A stretch of 64,000 nucleotides of DNA, from NCBI GenBank assembly GCA_014898415.1, contig RCTD01000025.1, forward strand, positions 558,001 to 622,000, read 5' to 3'. The position numbers and the translations under genes were made by a program. The DNA comes from Stromatinia cepivora (lineage: Eukaryota; Ascomycota; Leotiomycetes; Helotiales; Sclerotiniaceae). The notes under the pieces were generated by a model. The model searched no databases. It was not told the origin of the DNA and saw nothing but the letters and a program-made list of their open reading frames with translations. Below are positions 2,109-40,353 of this stretch, one piece after another (within the stretch, counting starts at the first letter, position 1; each line of letters opens with the position of its first letter).

Positions 2109-3988
2109 TCATGCATCAATCAAGTTCTCCTCTTGTGCATCCTTCGCCTTACCTTCCTCACTGCTATCCTTGGTATCCTTGTTGCCAGCACGTCCTTTAC
2201 CCTTGCGGTCAGCTGCAGATCGTTGGTAGAATTCGGCCAAAACCTTTTGTGGGATACGGTTGAGCAATTCCTTGGGGTAAATGCGAAGCAAGCTCCACGC
2301 TTGATCGAGTGATTCATAAATGGTTCTCGATTCGTAAGCAGATTGTGAAATGAAAGTACGCTCGAATTTCTCCAAGAATTCCAACGAGAGCTTGTCCTCA
2401 GAAGACAAAGCTTCCTCACCAACAACTGCCTTCATGGATGCTGCATCACGACCAATGGCATATTTGGCGTACAATTGGTTGGAAACATCACCGTGATCCT
2501 TCCTGGTGAGCTTTTCTCCAATAGCAGACTTCATCAGACGCGAAAGCGATGGCAACACGTTGATAGGTGGGTAGATACCACGGTTGTGTAGTTGACGATC
2601 GATGAAAATTTGTCCTTCAGTAATATAACCAGTCAAATCGGGAATAGGGTGAGTAATATCATCGTTAGGCATAGTTAAGATAGGAATTTGAGTAATGGAT
2701 CCATTTCGACCTTGGACACGACCAGCACGTTCATAAATGGTAGACAAATCCGTGTACATATAACCAGGGTATCCACGACGTCCAGGTACTTCTTCACGAG
2801 CAGCCGAAACCTCACGAAGAGCATCGCAGTATGCAGTCAAATCGGTAAGAATAACCAAACAATGCTTCTCCAATTGGTAGGCGTAGTATTCGGCAGTAGT
2901 AAGGGCAAGACGAGGAGTAATGATACGTTCAATACTATGAAACATTAGTCTTGTGCGTTACGATGAGAGACTGGTCTAAAACTTACGTAGGGTCATTAGC
3001 CAAGTTCAAGAAGAGGGTGACACGCTCAAGACTTCCGTTCTCTTCGAAATCCCTAGTGAAGAAACGTGCAGTTTCCAAGTTGACACCCATAGCTGCGAAA
3101 ACAATGGAGAAGTTCTCCTCGTGTCCATCGTGTGTGCCTTTGTTTGTAACACCCTGTTTCTGAACCAAGCCAGCTTGTCGACAAATTTGAGCAGCGATTT
3201 CGTTATGTGGTAAACCGGCAGCAGAGAAAATAGGAATCTTTTGTCCACGAGCAATGGAGTTCATCGTGTCGATAGCAGAAATACCCGTTGAGATCATTTC
3301 TTCGGGGTAAACCTGATATAGATTAGCCAAAGAATCGACTACCAATCTGCAAGTCTTACTCTTGAATATGGGTTGATAGGACTTCCGTTAATGTCCAAAT
3401 AATCTTCTGCCAACACCTTTGGTCCCTTATCAATTGCTCTTCCAGATCCATCGAAGATTCGACCCAACATATCCTCGGAGACACCAAGTTTCAAACTGTG
3501 TCCTGTGAACTCGACTGTAGACTATTGCAGTATTAGCAACACAGTCGCTGATGTGCCTTTGTAATTTTGTCATACCTTCTTCACATCGATACCATGAGTG
3601 CCCTCGAAAACCTAAACCGTTAGTTAGTACAAGACGTTGGCGCCCCCAAGGGAATCGAATTCTTACTTGAACAACTGCTCGATCACCTGTAGATCATACA
3701 AAGTTAGTAAATGATTCCGCATAATCAATAGCACATATACTACATACCTCTAGCTTCCAACACTTGTCCTGACCTCTGTGTGCCATCAGGCAGAGTCAAG
3801 CTAACAATCTCATTGTATCTTGGGAATTTGACCTGCGACCTTATCAGAATATACCCAAGTACCACCTATCCATCATCCCTCAAACTCACATTCTCCAGAA
3901 TAACCAAAGGACCATTGATACCACCGATGGTATTATACCTGATTCGCGGCGTAACACTGTACGACGACGACTCTCTTGGATCTCCCAT
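2109..3988 (-). CDS. VMA2: V-type proton ATPase subunit B, seven exons
   Basis: Subunit B of the V1 sector, the non-catalytic nucleotide-binding partner of subunit A that helps acidify vacuoles and endosomes. Seven exons join in frame: 3988-3890, 3832-3748, 3686-3667, 3611-3576, 3521-3360, 3312-2987 and 2934-2109, giving 1554 nt or 517 aa, the same length as yeast Vma2 as I recall it. Landmarks are the start MGDPRESSS, then [37 protein letters not shown], and the alpha/beta-family signature [18 protein letters not shown]. The C-terminus is a lysine-, glutamate- and aspartate-rich tail ending in NLIDA. The third exon is only 20 nt. All donors are GT and all acceptors AG. It lies in tandem with the HMG-CoA lyase gene on the same strand. 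Very sure of identity. Confidence 0.97.
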
Positions 3989-14639: not shown

Positions 14640-15667
14640 TTACAGAACATCCGGCGGCGGGGTTTCAATCACATCCGATGCATTTCTTCTCCTAGCCCAA
14701 TCCCACAAGACATCAAAGTTTCTACACTTCCGGTCCTCATAGCCCGGTGTAATGTAAGAATATTTAGTCGCATCCCAAATTATCTGAAGGGGTGTTGTAT
14801 CGCTGTTGCATAAGATGACCTGGCGGAGAGCTCGATGCAGTGATCTGAGTTGTAGTTTAGTACCATTTTTGCATATACATATCGTTTTTACCAACCTATA
14901 TGGAATTCTTTATATTCGACCGCGCTTTCTGGAAAGGTTGCGAAATTCTCTGGGTACCAGACTTGATCGCGGAGCGTTTTCTGGAAGAAACATATGATGA
15001 GTCAAGTGTCTTATATCCTTAATGTCTTTTGAGATCGAAGGGCGGACAAGAAATGAATACTTACAAGACAATGAATCTGGTGGAAGACTTCCACCTCAAC
15101 CACAAATCCCCCAGGCTCTTTAGGGTTGGGAAGAGTTTGAAATGGTAATCGATCATGCTCATCTATACCGATGTTGATAATTCCTGCCTCACATACATGA
15201 GCAAGTTTCTTCGATGAAATCACTGTATGTCTAATATCATACAGCTGGTCAAATTGTCCTATGCTCTATTTGATGCTCTGTTCGGTCGACCTTTGAATAT
15301 CGCCGAGGGTTTGAAAGGGGATACAACAATTTCGATGTCCGGTAGATCTCGATATATGTTTGCTTTAGGTCAGACGTCAATTTGTATATTCATCCATGTC
15401 AATTTTCGAACCGAGTGGGAACTTACGGTGGGAAATGCATGCAGACTCCGGCAAGCATTTCGAGACAGAAAAAATACTTATTAGGCCAAACAATATAGAG
15501 TAGCAGAGGGAAAAAAGTCCATGAAGCATCCAAAGAAAACCTAGTCGCAGCTGGATACAGGAGCGACCGTGAATGGAGTCCTTAGTAGGGTGCAAGGTTT
15601 TCGCTGTCGTCGAGAAGAAAAGTCGACTGGCAGGACTGTTCATCCATGGTGTAACAGGTCGGAGCAA
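14640..15667 (-). pseudogene. Broken UstYa-family (DUF3328) oxidase gene
   Basis: UstYa-type proteins are membrane-anchored oxidases that cyclise or otherwise oxidise ribosomal peptides in dikaritin pathways such as ustiloxin. The first copper/metal motif is clear: GGFVVEVEVFHQIHCL ending near 15060. A GT...AG intron leads to KTLRDQVWYPENFATFPES, and a second intron to FHIDHCI, the second HxxHC-type motif. Just after that (about 14830-14836) one base is missing; the next frame carries LRQVILCNSDTTPLQIIWDATKY and then the C-terminus to a stop at 14640. Upstream, a likely Trp codon reads TAG at 15259-15261 and the frame shifts before DQLYDI. A hydrophobic segment FLWMLHGLFSLCYSILFGLISIF at about 15500-15570 may be the N-terminal membrane anchor. 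Family sure; that it is dead is likely but rests on one indel and one stop. Confidence 0.75.
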
Positions 15668-16621
15668 ATTTTTGTTAATTTAATTCAAATTGAAGCGGCA
15701 GGCAAGTTTAAACCTACCCTTCACATGTATTCTCCATTTTCAGAATCGCATCATCATACCTGAGAAATTGATTATGGCGGAATGCCGAGGATCTTGTGAG
15801 CGTTTTTCCACTTGCGCACCGCGCCATGCGATTACATGATCCGCCACTCTCTTGAGATATGTCCAGCGAATCAGTGTATCTACCATACAATGAACACCAA
15901 CTGATGCCATTATCATGGCCATATAGATACCTGCGCCTCCCCACAAATCAATAAATCTCTCGCACCTTCCTTCCATTTGTCCAGTGGGACGTACCTCTTT
16001 CAGTCTTCAAATGGCCTCCAGATTTGTTATCAAATTGGTCAGGATCCTGAAGGCCATCGCGTAATGTGAACTGGGAACATTTGCCATACAGCGATTCACG
16101 CTACAGCTGTGCGTAATACCGTCTTATCTCACTTAACTGAGCTTAACCCTAAACCCATTTAACCCCGATCAACCTCGCCAAAACAGGGATATCAGGAATA
16201 CAAAGCAAAAATTGAGAGCAAGGTTATCCACTTTGACTATTCACCCATTCATTTACTCCGATCAGCCAGGTCATCTTTGTTTAAGTGAGAAACCTCAGAG
16301 ATAAGGCGGTATACGCTCGCACAGGTCAGTATGCATTTGGACAGTTATGCGTCGTATTCTTATGTGCTACAGACGTGATTGGAAACACGCCATCAAATCG
16401 CCACGCGAAAATGCATAAAATGCTCTCCCTTGGAAATTAGCACTGCTGGGTAGCGGAAATGAGCAAATTTTGTTGCATGGAGGTGGCATAGATTTCTTCA
16501 CGGGCAATATTGAACAAGGAATAAGTGTGACGCTCTAGGTGGTAAGTGCAGCTAGAGACTTTATCGATATACCGCAGTTTGCGACATGTTGGTGATAATG
16601 CAACACACATCCTTACCATCC
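15668..16621. other. Gene-poor stretch with an unassigned open frame
   Basis: Minus-strand frames at 15740-15976 (78 codons, hydrophobic centre GIYMAMIMASVGVHCMVDTLI) and 15714-15944 overlap each other. I could not assign either to a family; they could be a 5' exon of the UstYa relic or chance. The remainder to 16621 shows nothing. Confidence 0.4.
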
Positions 16622-17379
16622 TCAAATAACCTTGTAAGGCCTATGCATGACACTCAAAGTCTCCACAAGTTCCGTGTCTAGGGCCTTCCATTCTTCGCTC
16701 TTCTTATCCCCATCTATTATTGGCTTGACTTCTACATCTCTAACGATTTCGAATCCATGCTTTAGATAAAGCGGAACCCCTGTCTGTGAACCTTCAACGT
16801 AGCAATCAAGACCAAGCTCATCGGGTTTCTTGGTTCTCTAGTCTATGACGAGGCTTCCGATCCCTCTTTGACGATGGTCAGGATCAGAGAATACGACCTG
16901 TATAGCTAGAAGCATGTTGTCAGCATTCGAAATCCTTTGCAGTTTCTGAGCGAGAGTAGTCTAAAAACCTGGCACATACCGAGATGAGGTCCTCTCTCTT
17001 CGCCTTTGATAGCTGCCCATTGGGCAAAAACCATTTCGGAGTACTTTCTTTTCTCCCCTTCAGGCAACCACCAAGGATCGATAGCCATTGGCTTTTCATG
17101 CGTCTGGACGATTCTCCAACAACCCCCACCAACTACTTTGCCTCCGAGGTTAGAATCAGCGACCTTCAACCAATGGCTGCAATCATCAACTGAGTGACGG
17201 TACCATTGTCGGGCGATGAGCCCTTTTACCGCATCCAATCGCGCCGTCGGACCATTCCCCAATACAGGATAAAACATACGCGATGACACATTTATCGGAG
17301 AATCGAAAGCATCTGCTTGAACTTTTACCACTTCCGCAAACTCCACGGCAGTTGTAACTTCTTGGATTTGGAGAGACAT
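16622..17379 (-). pseudogene. GNAT-family N-acetyltransferase, copy 1, with a nonsense codon
   Basis: Starts at an ATG at 17379 (MSLQIQEVTTAVEFAEVVKV). It keeps the stretch WYRHSVDDCSHWLKV, GGKVVGGGCWRIV, and PWWLPEGEKRKYSEMVFAQW. A GT...AG intron (about 16972-16912) joins to VVFSDPDHRQRGIGSLVID, which contains the acetyl-CoA loop RQRGIG (Q/RxxGxG/A). Directly after it a TAG at about 16840 stands where the paralogues at 31.6 and 39.4 kb have Trp (AWGTQK, EWATRK). The frame then stays open through PDELGLDCYVEGSQTGVPLY and HGFEIVRDVEVKP to a stop at 16622. A TGG-to-TAG change is what RIP makes. Otherwise intact, so inactivation looks recent. Substrate unknown. Confidence 0.82.
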
Positions 17380-18644: not shown

Positions 18645-20078
18645 TCAATATAAATTAATCTGTTTTAAAAATTCGATTAATTTAATTCGAGCTAATGGCT
18701 TAGTAAGGCCATCGGCTTTTTGGTCATTAATTGATATATAAATCAGATCTAGATCACCTGAATTTATAATATCTTTAATATAATAAAACCGTATTGCAAT
18801 ATGCTTGCTTCTTTCGTGAAAAATAGGGTTTTTAGCAAGAGCTAATACAGCTTGGTTATCTGTATATAATGGAAATTTATCTTGTTTATATAGATTTAGT
18901 TTTATTAATAGCTTTTTAATATATATAGCCTCTTTAGCTGCTATATTAATAGCTATAAATTCAGCTTCTGAAGTTGATTGGGCTACAATCGATTGTAGTT
19001 TAGATTTCCAGCTAATAGATTCTTCGGCTAATATAAATATGTATCCATTAATTGATTTATATGTATTAATTTCACCCCTATAATCTGAATCACAATAACC
19101 TTTAATATAAAAATTATTATTATTGTGTTTATAATTAACCTTTTTATTAATAGTACCCTTTAAATATCTTAATATTCTTTTAACGGCTTGAATATGTATA
19201 GAGTTAGGATTAAATGAAAAACTAGTTAATCTATTGATATGAAAAGCTATATCTAATCTAATTTCAAGTGACAAATATAATAAAGAACCAATAATTTCTT
19301 GATATAATTTTATATCATTATTATTAGCTTTTTCTTTATTATAATAAAGTTTTATTTTTGGATCCATTGGAGTAGAAACAGGGTGTGATTCTAGTATTCC
19401 AAATCTGGCTAATACCTTTTTGGTATATTCTGATTGATGTAGTTTTAAATTATTTGTATTTCTTTCGATTTGAATGCCTAGATAATCTTTTATAAGCCCT
19501 AAATCTTTTAAATCGAAATGCTTTTTAAGATTATTAATAAATTCATTAATAACCTTTTGATTTGGAACTATAATAGCTATATCATCGATATATATACTGA
19601 GAATAATATTTTTATTTTTATTAATAAAAATACATTCTTCAGTAATTAGATTATAAAAATCTAATTTGTTTAGAACGGTTTTTAAGATATAATACCAAAT
19701 TCGGGCCGATTGTTTTAAACTGTATAATGCTTTATTTAATTTTAAAGCTTTATTATTTAATTCATTAAAACCTTCAGGGGGTTTTAATATTAGAAATGTA
19801 TCGATATCATTTTGAGCAAAGGCTAATACTATATCGATTTTATGAATTAACCAATCATTTTGAAGGGCTAATACGAATAATAATTTCCAGACCATTGATT
19901 TAACCATTGATATATGAGTATCAATATAATCTAGGCTATATAATTGCTCAAAACCTTTAGCAATGAATCTAGCTTTGAATTCAATAAAATCACCTAAATC
20001 TTTTATTTTATAAACCCATCTAGTTTTAAGGGTTTTACTATGATTAGGATTATTAATAATATCCCAGGTTTTATTCAA
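18645..20078 (-). CDS. Copia reverse transcriptase and RNase H frame
   Basis: 477 open codons. The order is the connection motif NKTWDIINNPNHSKTLKTRW, then FKARFIAKGFEQ, FLILKPPEGF, LNKALYSLKQSARIWYY, the catalytic YIDDIAII (the usual YVDD), and HQSEYTKKVLARFGI. The RNase H part follows: GYCDSDYRGE, SISWKSKLQSIVAQSTSEAEF, and DNQAVLALAKNPIFHERSKHI. The first Met is not the true start of pol: just upstream, an expected Trp reads TGA in the same frame (EY*LKVIDYKI). The frame is therefore the intact C-terminal half of a broken polyprotein. Catalytic aspartates are present, so the enzyme itself could fold, but no normal route for its translation is visible. Belongs to the element at 18079-23799. 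Confidence 0.9.
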   Translation of the reverse strand: MNKTWDIINNPNHSKTLKTRWVYKIKDLGDFIEFKARFIAKGFEQLYSLDYIDTHISMVKSMVWKLLFVLALQNDWLIHKIDIVLAFAQNDIDTFLILKPPEGFNELNNKALKLNKALYSLKQSARIWYYILKTVLNKLDFYNLITEECIFINKNKNIILSIYIDDIAIIVPNQKVINEFINNLKKHFDLKDLGLIKDYLGIQIERNTNNLKLHQSEYTKKVLARFGILESHPVSTPMDPKIKLYYNKEKANNNDIKLYQEIIGSLLYLSLEIRLDIAFHINRLTSFSFNPNSIHIQAVKRILRYLKGTINKKVNYKHNNNNFYIKGYCDSDYRGEINTYKSINGYIFILAEESISWKSKLQSIVAQSTSEAEFIAINIAAKEAIYIKKLLIKLNLYKQDKFPLYTDNQAVLALAKNPIFHERSKHIAIRFYYIKDIINSGDLDLIYISINDQKADGLTKPLARIKLIEFLKQINLY

Positions 20079-21560
20079 TTCAAAGGTATTTATTTTATAA
20101 TCTATAACTTTTAATCAATATTCTTTATTCGGTGAACTAATTGCTTTTTTATAGGATTTTGGTTCGATTAATATATGATTAGGTTTTTTAATAATAATTT
20201 TATTATTATTTTTAAATTGAATATCGAAAGTTAATTAAAGGTTTTTCGAATTTTCATCATCGATTTCGAATTGTATTTTTTTATTAATCGAATTAAAATA
20301 CCCAGAAAGAATTAGATTATAATATGATATTCTATTATGATTATATAAAAGTCCTTTATTTTCAGGTTTTAATCTTCTAATTCGTTTAGAAATTCGAATT
20401 TCAGGTTTTTCAAAGATTCCTTCCTCGATTTCATTATTTGAGCATCCTGATTCGATTATTCTTTCTTTGGGAATTGGGTTTTATATTATAATTGAAATTG
20501 AATTTTCTTCTTCTTTATTTATAATATTAATAAATTCGAAATCGGGACTTTCTTCTTCCAAAATATTTAAATCCTGATTTTTATATTTATCGGAATATTT
20601 TAAATTCTTTTGAATATCAATATCCTTAATACTAATTACCTTTTTAATTACAGGAATATATATTAAAAAGTTATTAGAGGATTCAAAACCTATTAATATA
20701 CCTTTTCGAACCCTAAAATCCATTTTCCCTTTTCGAATTTCTTTATTATTTAATATATAAATAAGAGAACCTAATGTTTTTATATATTCCAAATTAGATT
20801 TCTTATTATATATTAATTCGAAAGAAGATGATTTAATAGAACTATTATAAATTCTATTTTTGATATAGATTATAACCTGAATTAAATAAGGCCATAGAAA
20901 AAGAGGAATATCTTTTTCTTTAATTAAATATAATAATCTTTCGATTATATATTTGTTTAATATTTCGGTTATTCCATTTTGGGAATATATATATGGATTT
21001 ATATATTCTGAAATAATCCCATGATTTTTAATGAAAATGGATTATTTATTTGAAAGAAATTCTAAAACATTATCTAACCTTAATATTTTAATATTAGTAT
21101 TAAATTGAGTTTTAATTTGATTATAAAATTCTATTAAAATATTATAAATTTATGATTTAAATTTAATAAAATATACCCAAATAGTTCTAATAGCTTATTC
21201 CATAAAGATTAAAAAGTATTTTTCACCTTTAATCCCTATAATTCGAAAGAGTTTAACAATATTTAGATTGAATTTTTCGAATCTATTCGATATATTAGGA
21301 ATATCAAAGGATTCTCGATTTATTATTTGATGGAATTTGCCGAATTTATATGATTCATATATATTTAAATCAGATATATTATCTTCTGATTTAATATTTA
21401 AGGATTTAATTAAATAATCCTTATTAATATGATCTAATCTTTTATGTATTAGGTTTAAATCGATTTTATTGGTTAATAACTCTGATTTTTCAGATTCAAA
21501 GTTAATGTTTTTGATATATTTAGAATTTATTTTAAAATCTAAATAATAAGCATTATTGAT
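20079..21560 (-). pseudogene. Degenerate copia integrase region
   Basis: Between protease and RT, the minus strand can be read as integrase with interruptions: a zinc-finger-like HKRLDHIN ... then LDNVLEFLSNK, HGIISEYINPYIYSQNGITE (the copia DDE block around the last acidic residue) and SLIYILNNKEIRKGKMDFR. Several in-frame TAA/TAG codons fall where Trp or similar would be expected (for example FLIFME*AIRT). One open part runs 20792-20481 (103 codons). AT content is extreme. Non-functional. Confidence 0.75.
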
Positions 21561-22793
21561 CTAGGGAGCTATAGTTTTAATATTATACCTTTTGTAAATT
21601 AGATTGATTTTATTTCCTGATGGTATAATATGATTAGTCCAGCCCTTAGTAGCTATTTTATTTGAGCTAATTAAGGTTGTAGCTAATTTTGATATATAAT
21701 ATACTCCTTGAATAATGATTTCCGAATTATTATTAATAATAATTGGAATATCACCTACTTCTTCGATTGAAGTATTTTCACTATTGGTTACAGTGATATA
21801 ATGATTTTTCAATGGTTTATAATTAATAAACCATTCCTTATTAAAGCAATAATGTTCTGTAACTCCCGAATCTAATATGAATTTGTATTTCGAAATATTG
21901 ATTGAATTAGCTAATCCAATATTATGATTTATAATCATTAATTGCTTGTTTGAAAGAGGGTTCTTTTTATTCGAATTATTATTCGAATCAGAATTGGATT
22001 GCTTATTATTATTACCCTTATTATTCTTTAATTCAGGGTATTTAATAAAGTATTTAGATTCTAAATGACCCTTCTTCCGGCAATGACTACAATAAGGAGT
22101 TTTATTATTTTTAAAACTAGCCTTATTTGCGTTGAGATCTATATTAGATTTCATTCTAGCCTCTTCGGATATTAATTCAGAAAATAAATTATCTAAATCA
22201 ATATTATTATTATTAGCTAATTCTTTAGCTAATTCTTCGTATTTTCGAGAGGCAAAACCGTCGAATGAACTAGGTAGGCCTCTAAAAAGGAACCATGCAA
22301 TAAAGGCCTTCGGAATTTCGTATTTCATCGATTTTAAATAGTTATATGACGATTGGATAGAATTAGTATATTCATCCATTCCATCAGAACTATTATAATT
22401 AGATTCTATTAATTTATTTAGATATCTCCCCATTAATTCTAAGGATGATTCTCCAAATATTTTATTAATAGATTCCCAAAGAGTTTTAGCCGAATTTTTA
22501 TCTTTAAATCTTTCGACTAATTCGAAGCTAATTATAGATTTAATAGCTCCTAAAGCCCTCTTTTCATTTCGAAGATATTCAGAGGTTCTTTCATTAAATC
22601 TAATAGCTAATTCAGGGCTATAAAATTCTCCTTTTTCATTAATATATAATGATTTATTTGGAGGAGTTTCGGAACCATCGATATAAGGCATAAAACCATT
22701 AATTTCAAGGTATAATTTAGCCTTATTTATCCATTCAATATAATTGGACCTCCCTTTCAAGGGTTCTCCTTTAAAATTTATACCGGAAGCCAT
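21561..22793 (-). CDS. Copia gag with protease start
   Basis: 410 aa from an ATG at 22793 (MASGINFKGEPLKGRSNYIEW). The N-terminal two thirds is a copia Gag: EWINKAKLYLEINGFMPYIDG, ALGAIKSIISFELVERFKD, and AWFLFRGLPSSFDGF. A zinc-knuckle-like block PYCSHCRKKGHLESKYFIK has C-x2-C-x4-H but Tyr where the last Cys should be (CX2CX4HX4C), a change explained by one G-to-A. The protease active site FILDSGVTEHYCFNKEWF follows, with D-S-G intact. The frame stops soon after. Gag is thus nearly intact while downstream pol is not, so selection or recent descent kept the structural part readable. Confidence 0.88.
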   Translation of the reverse strand: MASGINFKGEPLKGRSNYIEWINKAKLYLEINGFMPYIDGSETPPNKSLYINEKGEFYSPELAIRFNERTSEYLRNEKRALGAIKSIISFELVERFKDKNSAKTLWESINKIFGESSLELMGRYLNKLIESNYNSSDGMDEYTNSIQSSYNYLKSMKYEIPKAFIAWFLFRGLPSSFDGFASRKYEELAKELANNNNIDLDNLFSELISEEARMKSNIDLNANKASFKNNKTPYCSHCRKKGHLESKYFIKYPELKNNKGNNNKQSNSDSNNNSNKKNPLSNKQLMIINHNIGLANSINISKYKFILDSGVTEHYCFNKEWFINYKPLKNHYITVTNSENTSIEEVGDIPIIINNNSEIIIQGVYYISKLATTLISSNKIATKGWTNHIIPSGNKINLIYKRYNIKTIAP

Positions 22794-23252
22794 TTTTAAG
22801 CCTTTATATATAAGCTATATGGACTTTTAATCTGATATAAAATTAATACTAATTTTGATGAATTTAGTATTAAAATTTTGAATGGATTTCGATTATGATT
22901 CGAATTGATATCGAAATTAATTCGATTAAAAATTATAAACCAGCCACCTCTTAAATTAGATCTTTATTTTAGGCTGTATAAAATAAAGCCTAATCAAGCT
23001 AGGGCACCTTGGTATGAAGAAATTGATATATCACCCGCTATGGGTAGCGTATAGCTTAAATATATCGTCTAGGGACCTAATTTTATTCGCTCAATTAGGT
23101 TTAGCTTCAGGGACGCAGGCCTCAGGGTTTATTTTCGATGGTATTTCAATATAATATCGATATTATATTGATATAATTATATTCGACGGCTTAATAGCTA
23201 TAATATTATAGCTTTAAATCAAGCCAATACCCTTTTTAAGCTAGTTATTTAA

Positions 23253-26040: not shown

Positions 26041-26592
26041 ATGCAGATTCGTCTCATAATTGCTGCAGTGGTTACTGCTATCGTTGCTCCCAGCTTAGCC
26101 GCTCCAGCTCCTTGTATGATCTTCCGCACCAGCCAATCCCTTGACATTGAGTAACTCCTTCTATCTATCTACGGGGCCGCAAACGTCGAAATCATCATGG
26201 AAAAAAGAGAACGTGAGTACTCGTCTTCCAACTCTCGAGTCTTCAGCTCGGTTGTGGACTAACGGTTGATATCTACAGCTAAAATTCCATTGAAGAGAGA
26301 ACCAGAACGTACGCTATACACTTGTCAATTTCAAATTGACAATTTGAAATTGCTTTTATGAATGATAGCTTAATTGTGCTGAATCTGACCTTCGAGTTTT
26401 ACAGTTGCCAAACCGTTTAAGAGAGAAGCGGGGGGTATGTAGATCCGATGATTCCTTTCATGGAGCGCAATTAATTGTTGTTTTACACAGTTGCAGCGCC
26501 ATTTAAGAGAGAAGCAGAACGTACGTCAATCATATAATTCTTTTGGGCATTATGAATACTGATTGCCAAATACAGTTGCAGCGCAGTTCTAG
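26041..26592 (+). CDS. Candidate secreted Kex2-processed repeat peptide precursor built from 30-nt exons
   Basis: The ATG at 26041 opens a signal peptide (MQIRLIIAAVVTAIVAPSLA, then APAP). The first exon ends at 26113. Downstream, exons 26279-26308, 26405-26434 and 26491-26520 are each exactly 30 nt, all in phase 1, each with AAGAGAGAA (Lys-Arg-Glu) at the same place, and each followed by a GT donor. A final 17-nt exon, 26576-26592, ends in TAG. An earlier exon ending at 26212 also encodes EKRE. Each 30-nt exon therefore gives one decapeptide of the type (L/V)A-x-PF-KR-E-(A/P)-(E/G), so Kex2 cleavage would free short octapeptides. No Tyr or Cys lies in the repeats; Phe is the only aromatic. 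The acceptor of the second exon is not visible (ctacgg where the others have tacag). An intact UstYa gene lies 743 bp downstream on the opposite strand. Could be a RiPP precursor or a pheromone-like peptide. Confidence 0.68.
26326..26352. repeat. Perfect 13-bp inverted repeat inside an intron of the repeat-peptide gene
   Basis: CAATTTCAAATTG, one A, then CAATTTGAAATTG: perfect hairpin arms with a 1-nt spacer, in the longest intron (26309-26404). Could fold in the pre-mRNA; no function known. Confidence 0.7.
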
Positions 26593-27334
26593 CGGGTGTG
26601 GGGTTATAAGATCTGATACTATGATCTGAGTTGGTACACTAGCGGACTTTTGAAATGTGATTGGAATGCTATTAAGTTGTAATAACCGCATTCGGGATGG
26701 AAGAAATACTGGTTAATTCCCTTGCGGCTGAAAATTCAACATTTTCACAGCTTAGCCATATTCATTCTGCCATGTTGACATTGATATAATGATTAAGAAC
26801 ACCTTCCACCAATCTCTGAGATATTTTGCAATTAATGATGTCGTGTGACTGTTTCTGCGCCCCACTGTCAAGACAAGAGTGTTGAACCATCCATCAATCG
26901 ACCACCCCAAAAATGGAAGGTGGGCCGGCCCGCCTAAATTGGTTCCAAACTTGCATTGAAGAACTCTGATGTCTCTCTTGGATTTACCAACGTCATGTAC
27001 AGAAGTATGGTAGAATGAACTTTTACACGTGCAATAGGACTTTGATGAAGGATGTGGCTTCTTGGAACGGGTAAACTCCTCGTGTGGTGACTTGGGTGCA
27101 TGTGCTTACCATATCGCTGTCGTGAGAAGCCATGTCGGGAGGTGGCTTAATGCTATTCATTCACGCGTGGAACTTTCAACACAAATAAGAGCTGCGCTGT
27201 TCAGCTATGTTCACTTTCTGTGATTCTAAACGATTGGAACTCAACGACACTTTTATCAGGATATATATAACTTTTCCACGAGCCTGGATAATCTTAGCTG
27301 AGGTATTATTACACTATGCATAAAGAAGTAGGTA
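26593..27334. other. Intergenic between two converging genes
   Basis: 743 bp between the 3' ends of the repeat-peptide gene and the UstYa-family gene; no gene or repeat recognised. Confidence 0.5.
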
Positions 27335-28229
27335 TTATGTGATTCGTTGGCCATTCTCAAGAGAAGGATTGCTTCCATCCGGGCAACGACGGTATCGCTC
27401 AACTTCTCCCACCCCATCTTCATAGGTATCAGGCTCGATATAACATGCAGAATGCTTGTTTGCCCATTCATCAAGTCTTGTCCAGTCCCTGCATAACCGA
27501 TACTGCCCAAACGCCGTGCCACGACCTGCCTCCTCGCTTGAATATCGAGGTGAATCATCGGCGTTGCATAGGATATCTTCCCGAAGAGCGATAAGACAGT
27601 GATCCACATGAGGAACTGGCTCAGTCTGTTCTGTTTGATTTCGAAATTGCAAGATTGAAGTGCGAAGCTTTTTCTGTTTTTGTGTTAGTTTTGTAATAAA
27701 AGAACACGAAGGTGGTGGGTTCAACAAACTAAACAATGAAGATTGTGGTGTCCTTGTAAGAGGTAAATGCCTCTACTAGAATCCCATGGCCATCTCTGTG
27801 CGCTTGGCAGGCCCTTCTCGGCAACGAAAGCGTCTGTTAAGGCAATTACACCGGTATCAGCCATGGGAAACTCCCATTCCTCATCGGGAATGTCGTCATC
27901 TTTCCCGGGAATGGCGAACGGCTTCAATGTATCCCGAGAAAGATGAGCTAAAGCTTGTTAGCAAGCTTCCCAGATTCGATCACATTGCTGGTAGACTTAC
28001 CATATTCCGAGACACAGCTCCAACCATTTTGGTTGGCTGTAGATATATGAAGATTCCAAATCCAAATGACATGTCCAACGACGGAGACAAAAAGAGTTAT
28101 GATGAGAATGATCTTATCTTTTGGAAAACGAGGAAATATTTGGCTCTGAATGCCGATAGCCTCTGAGGAAGACAATCCTTCATCACTAGAGTCCGCCCCC
28201 CTTACAGGTTCGTATTTTGTTCCCGCCAT
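27335..28229 (-). CDS. UstYa-family (DUF3328) oxidase, intact
   Basis: Exons 28229-28001, 27947-27730 and 27673-27335 join in frame to 261 aa. Residues ~38-58 (DKIILIITLFVSVVGHVIWIW) form one membrane anchor after a short cytosolic N-terminus, so the catalytic part would face the secretory lumen. Next come AHLSRDTLKPFAIP, GVIALTDAFVAEKGLPSAQRW, and the first HxxHC motif HHNLHCLKKLRTS (joined across intron 2). The second follows, HVDHCLIALREDILCNADDSP, which is the diagnostic pair of the family. The C-terminal tail runs YRLCRDWTRLDEWANKH. In ustiloxin, asperipin and related pathways such proteins oxidatively cross-link core peptides cut from Kex2-repeat precursors. Here the gene converges on exactly such a candidate at 26041-26592. 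The motif set and clean splicing argue for a working gene; the substrate is inferred from position only. Confidence 0.9.
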
Positions 28230-29045: not shown

Positions 29046-30565
29046 ATGGGCGCTCCATATGATACTATCCAACCTCATGGCCCCACGAAACCCGCTAGCG
29101 TTATGGTTGTGAGCACCTTCCTTCCGATCTTGGCACTCATCGCTGTCGTCCTCCGATTCAATGTTCGACGGGTACAGAGAACGGCTCTCAGGTTCGATGA
29201 CTGGATCATGATACCCGCTGCTTTACTCGTTATTGGAATGAGTATTTGCGGTATACTTGGTGAGTTGTAGTCCGTGAAGGTATTCCATAGTGACCAGTTA
29301 TGGCTAAGAGAATCGTCATACTAGGCGTGCAGAAGAAAATATGGGGCTACCACTCACCCACCGATTCTGCGGCTATTCTTGTAGACAGTGTGACTTATGA
29401 AGGCAAGGCAAGTAAATAGAACTCTGGTTGTAAGGGCCGTGCTAATCAATGGCTTCTCAGCTACTGAACTCATTTCAATACATCCAAATCGGCGCACTAG
29501 CTACAATCAAGATTGGCGCTCTATTATTTTATAAGCGAGTATTCTGCACAAACATGAGATCCGCTTTCGAAATAATAAACACGGCGACCATAGCTTTCGT
29601 TGCAATCTGGGCATTTGCTATGATACTCGGCAATACATTTCAGTGTGGTCGACATGTTGACGCGCTATGGCTTACATCGGACGACTACTTGTAATACTGC
29701 GCTGTTATATCACCAGCCTTTGTATAAGCTTTCACCATCATCAACTTCGTGTTGGATCTGTGGATTATTCTACTGCCATTACTAATGGTGTGTATTCTAA
29801 GCTGTTAGCGACAAGCATATGTACGCTGACAATGTATCGATTTAGATATTCCATTTGCAAACAAATACCGGACGTAAATGGGCTATCTCTGGTGTATTTC
29901 TTCTCGCTTCGATGTATGAGAACTTTCCGAGTCTAAATTCAGGCATTGTGATAGTTGGACTATAATATGGGCTAACCATGTGTCGAAACAGTGGCTTGGC
30001 AGCTTCCATCACACGTGCTGCATACATCATTCAGATGTTCGACAGTAGGTACAGCAAGTCTTGGCCGATGTTATTGAATGCAACTAACTTAGTCTGCTAT
30101 AGCTCAATTTGACCCCAATGCCGACTACCGCCGTGAGTACCCCGAAAGAGAAGAAAACTGGTTTCTGACTCTTCTCTAGTACAAGATACTTTGATAATAT
30201 TCTGGTCCAACTTCGAAGCATCTATGTGTCTTTTAGCAGTCAACCTTCCCTCTCTCTGGGCCTACAAAACATCAATTCCCCCAACGCAATTCCTCGCCAG
30301 TGTCCGAAGCTTCATTACCATCCGGTCTGACCGCTCGACTACTCGCAATCGAGCGGGCCATGACACTATAACACCGGACAACAGATCTGAAAATTCATCA
30401 TCATCGGTTGCAAAGATGTGTACAAGTAACAATCGGGTGGATGTATACGCCATGCATGACTTAGAATCTCAAAACCAACACATTGCCGCACCGAAGGGCG
30501 CTATCCTTGTAGATTCTCATATGTTGCTGACCACCCAAAACAAAAGTGTACGGGGCCAGGAGTAA
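29046..30565 (+). pseudogene. PTH11-type rhodopsin-domain membrane protein with two nonsense codons
   Basis: Exons can be joined in frame from the ATG at 29046. Helix 1-2 segment FLPILALIAVVLRFNVRRVQ is followed by RFDDWIMIPAALLVIGMSIC. A short exon begins GVQKKIWGYHSPTDSAA and ends at a GC donor. The third exon carries LLFYKRVFCTNMRSAFEIIN and QCGRHVDALWLTSDDYL. The family then expects Q-YC...FVQAFTIINFVLD, but both Gln codons read TAA (29692-29694 and 29725-29727), 11 codons apart. Beyond them the frame is intact through FVLDLWIILLPLLM, GRKWAISGVFLLAS, AASITRAAYIIQMFD and FWSNFEASMCLLAVNLPSLWAY to a Ser/Thr-rich tail ending at 30565. Two CAA-to-TAA changes are C-to-T, as RIP leaves. This family of seven-helix proteins includes plant-surface sensors; ligand unknown. 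Otherwise well preserved, so recently lost. Confidence 0.83.
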
Positions 30566-31640: not shown

Positions 31641-32265
31641 CCCAATAGTCGACGCCCTCGGCGCCCTAACCACCCGCACCCACTTCCGCCACAACATGGA
31701 CCAATACTCACACTGACTCTGCGTGAGCCCCGACGTCTGAATCTAATAAAGTAGTGGGGGGCGGCTGTTGGCGTATAGCACTCGAAAATGAGAAAGCAGA
31801 GATGGAGTCATTGAACCGTGGTGTTTACCTGAGGGTGAGAAGAGAGAGTATGCTAATGGGGATCAAGTGGATAGAGGGGCGCATTGTGTTGTGTGTCTCT
31901 TTCGGGAAATCGGGGATTTGAATGGTTCGAGGAAGAAGAGAATGAAAATCCAGACTAATATCAGAATAGCCGTCGAGGTAGTATTTTCGTCCCCCTCCTA
32001 CCGATGCCAAGGAATCGGAAGTCTAGCTCTGGCATGGGGAACGCAGAAGATGGATCAATTGGGACTAGATTGTTATGTAGAAGTTTCACAAATAGGTGTT
32101 TTTCTGCATAGCAAACGTGAAGTTGAAAGGATTGGGGATGTGGAGGTGAAATCGGAAAAGGAGGAGTATTTGAGAGTGAGGAGTGGAAGAGGGTTGATAG
32201 GGAGTTGGTTAAAAATTGGACGGTTAGGCGGAAGCCTTGTAGGAAGGTTTCAGCATAGTGTATGA
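31641..32265 (+). pseudogene. GNAT acetyltransferase, copy 2, heavily decayed
   Basis: Pieces of the same protein as at 16622-17379 can be read in order. VDALGALTTRTHFRHNMDQY (about 31648-31707) matches the copy-1 segment ending in SHWLKV, but the Trp codon is TGA. Next, WCLPEGEKREYANG (about 31817-31858) corresponds to WWLPEGEKRKYSE. Finally, VVFSSPSYRCQGIGSLALAWGTQK (31979-32050) is the acetyl-CoA loop exon, followed by LGLDCYVEVSQIGVFL. The last piece keeps the Trp that copy 1 has lost. Several frameshifts separate the pieces. Dead relic. Confidence 0.75.
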
Positions 32266-39407: not shown

Positions 39408-40353
39408 TCCAAATCCGCGAAATCACCACCCCGTTCGATTTCGCCCCCGTTATCGCCCTCCAAGCAACATGTTTCCGTGATCCACCTTCTGTTTCTTCAG
39501 AGATTTTTTATCCTTATTCAAACTCAAGTGAAAAAGTTCCCTCATCTTCAAGCACGGATACGAACAAAACCACACAGAAAGAAGAAAAAACTACGGAGGA
39601 TACAAATGGTATAGACAAAAACAAGGTAGAAGGAACAAAAGCAAAAGAAGACGCAATAAAAGGTCTAACAGTAAGACAATGGTGGAGACATTGTATTGAT
39701 CCTTGGAGTCATTGGATTGGTGCATATGAGAGCTCTGAAGGAGATGATGAAATTGAAGGTTCGTTGGGCTCGAGGGGCTCGCCAGCAAAAGGTAAACTTG
39801 TAGGAGGAGCAAATTTCAGGATTGTGAGAGATGAGGAGGAGGAAGAAGCGAAGAGGATTGATACTTGGTGGTTGGAACGGGGATCGGTGAGGAGGGAAGT
39901 GGCGGAGGGGGTTATGGAGAAAGATTAGAGGGAGGAGGGGCGCGCATGTTGGTATGTTTATTGTTTATTTGTCATCTTGATACGGCTCAACCCCATGTGT
40001 TCATTGACTTACTGAACTCCCTTCCTGTAGCCGTGGTAGTAGTCTTTACCGATCCTTCTCGTCGCCGCAATGGTATTGGTAACAAGTTAATGGAATGGGC
40101 AACTCGAAAAGCGGATGACTTTGGGCTAGAGACTTTTATGGAAGGGAGTGAGACGGGAGTCCCTCTGTATAAGAGACATGGATTTGAGGTATTGACGGAG
40201 GTGGAAGTTAGGCCTAAGAGAATAGGAAATGCTGAGGGGAAGGATGGGGAAAGGGAGGAGGAGTGGAGAAATTTGGAGAAGGTTATGGTGGAGACTCTTA
40301 CGGTTATGAGGAGGAAGCCGAAGGGGGCGGGAAAGGAGGAATTCAGTGGTTAG
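39408..40353 (+). pseudogene. GNAT acetyltransferase, copy 3, nearly intact but frameshifted
   Basis: Reads VQIREITTPFDFAPVIALQA (matching copy 1 MSLQIQEVTTAVEFAEV) from a splice-acceptor-like CTACAG, through a lysine- and glutamate-rich insertion, to GLTVRQWWRHCIDPWSHWIG, KLVGGANFRIV and DTWWLERGSVRR. At 39926-39928 this frame hits TAG. Skipping one base gives KIRGRRGAHV, which splices at 39951 across a GT...AG intron to exon 2 at 40031: VVVFTDPSRRRNGIGNKLMEWATRK, LETFMEGSETGVPLYKRHGF, ending at 40353. No in-frame ATG precedes the first exon, so the start may be in an undetected upstream exon or lost. One extra base plus a missing start makes a pseudogene likely, though a sequencing slip in the G/A-rich run is possible. 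Confidence 0.65.

Follow-up and report, generated by a model that had tools for sequence, protein, structure and literature searches.

The locus analysed here, in the genome of Stromatinia cepivora, raises the question of whether a row of very short exons and the oxidase gene that faces it form a biosynthetic pair. Both lie in the stretch of 64,000 nt that was analysed (contig C25, positions 558001-622000; hereafter the window). The reading that fits best, and which we hold with moderate confidence, is that of an unannotated Kex2-repeat precursor gene and a UstYa oxidase gene, constituting a putative two-gene locus for dikaritin-like peptides ending in Phe. The predicted precursor gene comprises the following features:

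26041-26113, plus strand: exon 1, with the start codon and a hydrophobic leader (judged by eye), ending in phase 1
26114-26278, plus strand: intron 1, 165 nt, GTATGA..CTACAG
26174-26212, plus strand: exon-like stretch within intron 1 that has GTGAGT as its donor and includes codons for Lys-Arg (left limit guessed)
26279-26308, plus strand: micro-exon 1, 30 nt, KIPLKREPE
26405-26434, plus strand: micro-exon 2, 30 nt, AKPFKREAG
26491-26520, plus strand: micro-exon 3, 30 nt, AAPFKREAE
26576-26592, plus strand: last coding exon, 17 nt, AAQF followed by the stop codon TAG

Joined together, the five exons give an open frame of 59 aa spanning positions 26041-26592 of the plus strand (MQIRLIIAAVVTAIVAPSLAAPAPSKIPLKREPELAKPFKREAGVAAPFKREAELAAQF), which after its hydrophobic start reads ...APAPSKIPLKREPELAKPFKREAGVAAPFKREAELAAQF. 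The three 30-nt exons have length and phase in common and carry Lys-Arg-Glu at an identical place. The gene thus contains three Lys-Arg sites in three similar exons, i.e., the similar short repeats between dibasic sites that characterize a Kex2-processed repeat protein (KEP), and its three 30-nt phase-1 exons form, by sequence, the row of symmetric exons of up to about 36 nt that characterizes a micro-exon gene. All four introns (165, 96, 56, and 55 nt) are of the GT-AG type and in phase 1, with the donors GTATGA, GTACGC, GTATGT and GTACGT and the acceptors CTACAG, TTACAG, ACACAG and ATACAG, respectively. Branch-like words (CTAAC, CTGAC, TTAAT and CTGAT) start 20, 20, 20 and 17 nt before the 3' ends of the introns, and introns 1 and 2 contain two extra words of this kind each, all counted without a chance control. 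Retention of the 96-nt intron would lead to a stop, and the frame stays open in all eight subsets of the micro-exons. Intron 2 also harbors a near-perfect inverted repeat of 27 nt (26326-26352). Compared in six pairs, the introns do not clearly resemble each other (z from -0.14 to 2.02), an argument against any recent tandem duplication of exons together with their introns.

The initial annotation had described a leader followed by 30-nt exons with Lys-Arg-Glu at a fixed place, and as an observation this is confirmed as a whole (the leader by eye). It had also postulated five splice joins, four of which are supported; the fifth is not, as the exon-like stretch before position 26213 has no usable acceptor (no open frame results from any of the 4 AGs that lie downstream of exon 1 and upstream of its donor). 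To us, the stretch looks like an exon that was lost or never in use.

The second gene of the proposed locus is situated on the opposite strand:

28229-28001, 27947-27730 and 27673-27335, minus strand: UstYa (DUF3328) gene, three exons, 261 aa, intact

The two genes are arranged tail-to-tail, with stop codons ending at 26592 and 27335, 743 nt apart. The UstYa protein matches PF11807 (E 3.4e-20) and shows no difference from EAF04_009122 of Stromatinia cepivora (Sclerotiniaceae) along its 261 aa, which confirms the splice model. Both HxxHC motifs are invariant in all 11 aligned proteins (11 of 15 database hits; P0010 and P0013-P0015 were omitted), so that a complete gene with both motifs at this distance and orientation, as claimed at the outset, was borne out. 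The 14 hits besides the protein itself, obtained in a limited search that needs shared words, include proteins of a lichen fungus, the ash dieback fungus and Thermoascus. In the same limited search, 5 of the 15 database rows bear an organism name, and none of the four besides S. cepivora is known to belong to the Sclerotiniaceae; the nearest named relatives are HYFRA_00008953 of Hymenoscyphus fraxineus and MMC14_007271 of Varicellaria rhodocarpa. The best other match within the genome is 46% identical and located on contig C5, and no relatives were found in the PDB at E <= 1.

The neighborhood of the pair within the window contains the following elements, whose apparent in-frame stops and frame changes were judged by eye (unrecognized introns are possible):

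14640-15679, minus strand: second UstYa gene (UstYa-2), with an apparent in-frame stop and frame changes
16625-16960, minus strand: GNAT-like gene, with an apparent in-frame stop
18648-22814, minus strand: AT-rich remains of a copia-type retroelement (RVT_2)
29046-30000, plus strand: gene of a rhodopsin-like (PF20684) membrane protein, with apparent in-frame stops
31792-32262 and 39862-40350: GNAT-like frames similar to the gene at 16625-16960

These surroundings make decay of the precursor gene a serious rival, since three apparently broken neighbors (UstYa-2, the GNAT gene and the rhodopsin-like gene) accompany an AT-rich stretch with reverse-transcriptase remains at about 18-24 kb. According to this explanation, which we consider unlikely, a once longer repeat gene lost one exon acceptor and is now unused, though its frame is open; the exon-like stretch before 26213, with its good donor and no usable AG, would be the trace of that loss. 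Evidence against decay comes from the frame, which is uninterrupted across the five exons and retains every signal, from the tolerance of every micro-exon subset, and from the intact state of the adjoining UstYa gene.

The repeats also recall those of mating pheromones. The motif W-C-x-x-P-G-Q-P-C, which we take to be the alpha-pheromone core, has 12 exact matches in the genome, all on contig C28 and none in the window, and they belong to a single gene:

C28:153905-154847, minus strand: alpha-pheromone precursor gene with 12 exact core copies

As in the precursors of ascomycete alpha-pheromones, Lys-Arg is followed by Glu-Ala or Glu-Pro spacers in the window gene (PMC9769878), which would suit an expressed precursor giving linear, unmodified peptides (signal or pheromone-like), with UstYa acting on another substrate. 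In a survey of 7878 Kex2-repeat proteins, a DUF3328 gene was nearby in 22% of cases, on average 3.09 genes away, and the 78% without one are in keeping with this explanation; the same survey, however, found 98.6% of the putative fungal pheromone genes to be without a DUF3328 neighbor (PMC7329392). Moreover, the genome has its separate alpha-pheromone gene on C28, with repeats in long frames, and the pheromone core is absent from the window precursor. Linear products appear improbable to us.

The distinctiveness of the exon row was assessed with a strict detector (at least three exons that agree in length, phase and the place of Lys-Arg), applied to both strands of the window and 20 UstYa loci (264 kb in total). 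It returned one chain, the precursor, whereas 20 dinucleotide shuffles of this DNA, the sole background for the chain counts, contained none; two-exon chains were absent from the real DNA and averaged 0.55 per shuffle. A looser scan yielded two more chains (one in locus L027 and one at window positions 2528-3131), which were discarded as chance, their exon lengths being unequal and their peptides unlike. A stricter group detector gave 0 of 48 strand-loci, missing even the known precursor, and was set aside as too strict to serve as evidence. From a generic scan for repeated peptides (at least four copies) came many low-complexity groups and a gene of locus L014 (described below), the three-copy precursor being below the threshold. 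When up to two mismatches are allowed, the core pattern of the exons matches these three exons alone in the whole genome (reversed control: 1 and 1), and a 771-nt DNA search detected no second copy of the precursor, the sole other match being the inverted repeat of intron 2. A database of 5.8 billion proteins gave six candidate homologues, none at E <= 1, in a search that requires shared 5-residue words and which short divergent relatives would therefore escape. At least one protein of the same species (EAF04_009122) is present in that database, and annotation seems to have overlooked the precursor gene here. A chance arrangement with no gene present, compatible with the missing homologues and the two chance-like chains of the looser scan, is very improbable in view of the shuffles free of strict chains, the complete set of leader, stop and splice signals, and the similarity of the three copies to each other.

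The candidate two-gene locus was also set against the other UstYa loci of the 55.7-Mb genome, in which PF11807 gave 52 exon matches in 31 clusters at +-5 kb; the regions of +-1 kb around all matches make up 0.16% of the genome. Among the 30 UstYa stretches examined (the window, 20 of 10 kb, three of 8 kb and six of 4 kb), a Kex2-repeat gene or frame was present in six: the window, L011, L014, L017, L020 and L025. None was found in the six 4-kb stretches (L038-L043), which reach about 2 kb per side and cover the L041 cluster partly. In L011, L017, L020 and L025, the repeats are within one frame each, beside UstYa genes; L011 and L017 also have a phase-1 intron after the leader (by eye). The aromatic residue of the L020 repeat is also Phe.

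Several candidates were rejected: (i) minus-strand frames of L020, consisting of runs of Arg or Lys; (ii) a plus-strand pair of L025, antisense to its repeat frame; (iii) a second frame of L017, overlapping the first; (iv) two chains that were re-readings of the window precursor gene; (v) a weak minus-strand pair in the window; (vi) a repeat of L016 without dibasic sites; and (vii) an exon pair of L019, which derives from a 138-nt tandem repeat and was left unassigned. This tandem repeat (L019:4714-5110) lies between two UstYa genes.

A parallel in gene structure was found in L014:

L014:7202-8490, contig C24: Tyr-Gly-rich Kex2-repeat gene of 8 exons, near a UstYa gene

Its internal exons (96, 90, 18, 123, 72 and 18 nt) are all in phase 1, and the frame of 254 aa is intact; without both 18-nt exons, whose donors are weak (GTTCGT and GTCCGT), it would still be open. 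Like the window precursor, the L014 gene is UstYa-linked, has phase-1 symmetric exons and dibasic sites, and is missing from the proteins searched. It differs in its Tyr-Gly-rich product, greater length, unequal exons, and the two 18-nt exons with weak donors. No Stromatinia protein was among the 15 database matches of its product (7996 best candidates scored), which has relatives in Amylocarpus and Acephala; judging from these matches, the gene looks unannotated. The initial annotation regarded separate repeat exons as an oddity of the window; the layout holds, but it recurs at this second UstYa locus.

In its overall organization, the window locus resembles those of the dikaritins (ustiloxin, phomopsin and asperipin-2a), in which a secreted Kex2-repeat precursor is encoded beside a DUF3328/UstYa protein with two HxxHC motifs; the closeness of the two genes and both motifs are found here as well. 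It differs in having (i) one repeat per exon, (ii) a core without Tyr, and (iii) a minimal pair, as a Pfam scan of 20 translated pieces of window ORFs detected no tyrosinase, no S41 peptidase and no further gene usual for dikaritins. Phe is the only aromatic residue of the predicted core, and Tyr, a usual though not universal mark of dikaritins, is absent; in DUF3328-linked precursors it occurs in 65.6% of the repeats (PMC7329392). Furthermore, DUF3328 proteins work in non-RiPP pathways too (PMC12048977). The claim of a minimal dikaritin-type cluster is thus supported in part, namely by the pattern of precursor plus UstYa. In Venturia, nine dikaritin clusters were identified by manual search, with secreted tandem-repeat peptides as precursors (PMC9632046).

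For the aromatic residue, a comparison is offered by victorin of Cochliobolus victoriae, which we liken to the window product by description: its precursor is Kex2-processed, and its core ends in a Phe that is cross-linked to an aliphatic residue, the ring being closed, according to a review, between the side chain of this C-terminal Phe and an internal Leu (PMC9233826). The lack of Tyr, singled out at first as odd, holds true, but Phe as sole aromatic is less odd than claimed, because victorin closes through its C-terminal Phe.

The DNA itself shows the layout of the exons, their splice signals, the uninterrupted frame, the intact enzyme gene and how close the two genes lie, while the splicing, proteolysis and cross-linking of the precursor are inferred. 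The transcript would be spliced from the leader exon, three symmetric 30-nt exons and the short last exon, and its product would enter the secretory pathway. There, a Kex2-type protease would cleave after each Lys-Arg, a carboxypeptidase would trim the basic residues, and a Ste13-type dipeptidase may take off Glu-Pro or Glu-Ala after the cut, dipeptides that fit the Ste13 spacer pattern (PMC9769878). The predicted products are hexapeptides ending in Phe (ELAKPF, GVAAPF and ELAAQF) and a leader piece. In linear form, the three hexapeptides have calculated [M+H]+ values of 704.398, 561.303 and 678.346, respectively. The adjoining UstYa oxidase would most likely cross-link Phe to an aliphatic side chain, a reasonable guess given the Phe-Leu closure of victorin and the cyclization of dikaritin cores by UstYa-type enzymes (PMC9233826).

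Each predicted core starts in one exon and finishes in the next, thereby straddling each splice join. Since all micro-exon subsets are open as well, skipping would swap the front dipeptide of a core against a different tail, giving hybrid cores. This leads to a tentative wider proposal, of UstYa-linked exon-modular precursors in which the repeat is a symmetric micro-exon, skipping builds hybrid cores (e.g., ELAAPF and GVAAQF) as a splicing-driven peptide library, and gene callers miss the genes concerned.

The new part of the candidate locus is one repeat per exon in a UstYa-linked precursor. In the literature searched by title and abstract, no micro-exon Kex2-repeat or RiPP precursor was described among the matches listed, a set mostly outside subscription papers. 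The words "intron" and "exon" do not occur in the available main text of the large Kex2-repeat survey, which gives its precursors by protein accessions (PMC7329392), nor in that of a lichen RiPP survey (PMC12048977). A very short exon is known from Xlr2 of the filamentous fungus Trichoderma virens; unlike the row of repeat exons proposed here for a peptide precursor, it is a single, RNA-tested regulatory exon in a transcription factor (PMC11121469). According to that 2024 paper, functional micro-exons had not previously been described in filamentous species.

Annotation easily overlooks micro-exon genes, and the lichen survey found it a mystery that the precursor is missing next to UstYa genes (PMC12048977). 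If true, exon-modular precursors would account for part of the orphan UstYa genes without a found precursor, and a splice-aware rescan around such genes should then recover peptides that are now invisible. The layout would also be a test case for the combinatorial splicing of peptide products in fungi.
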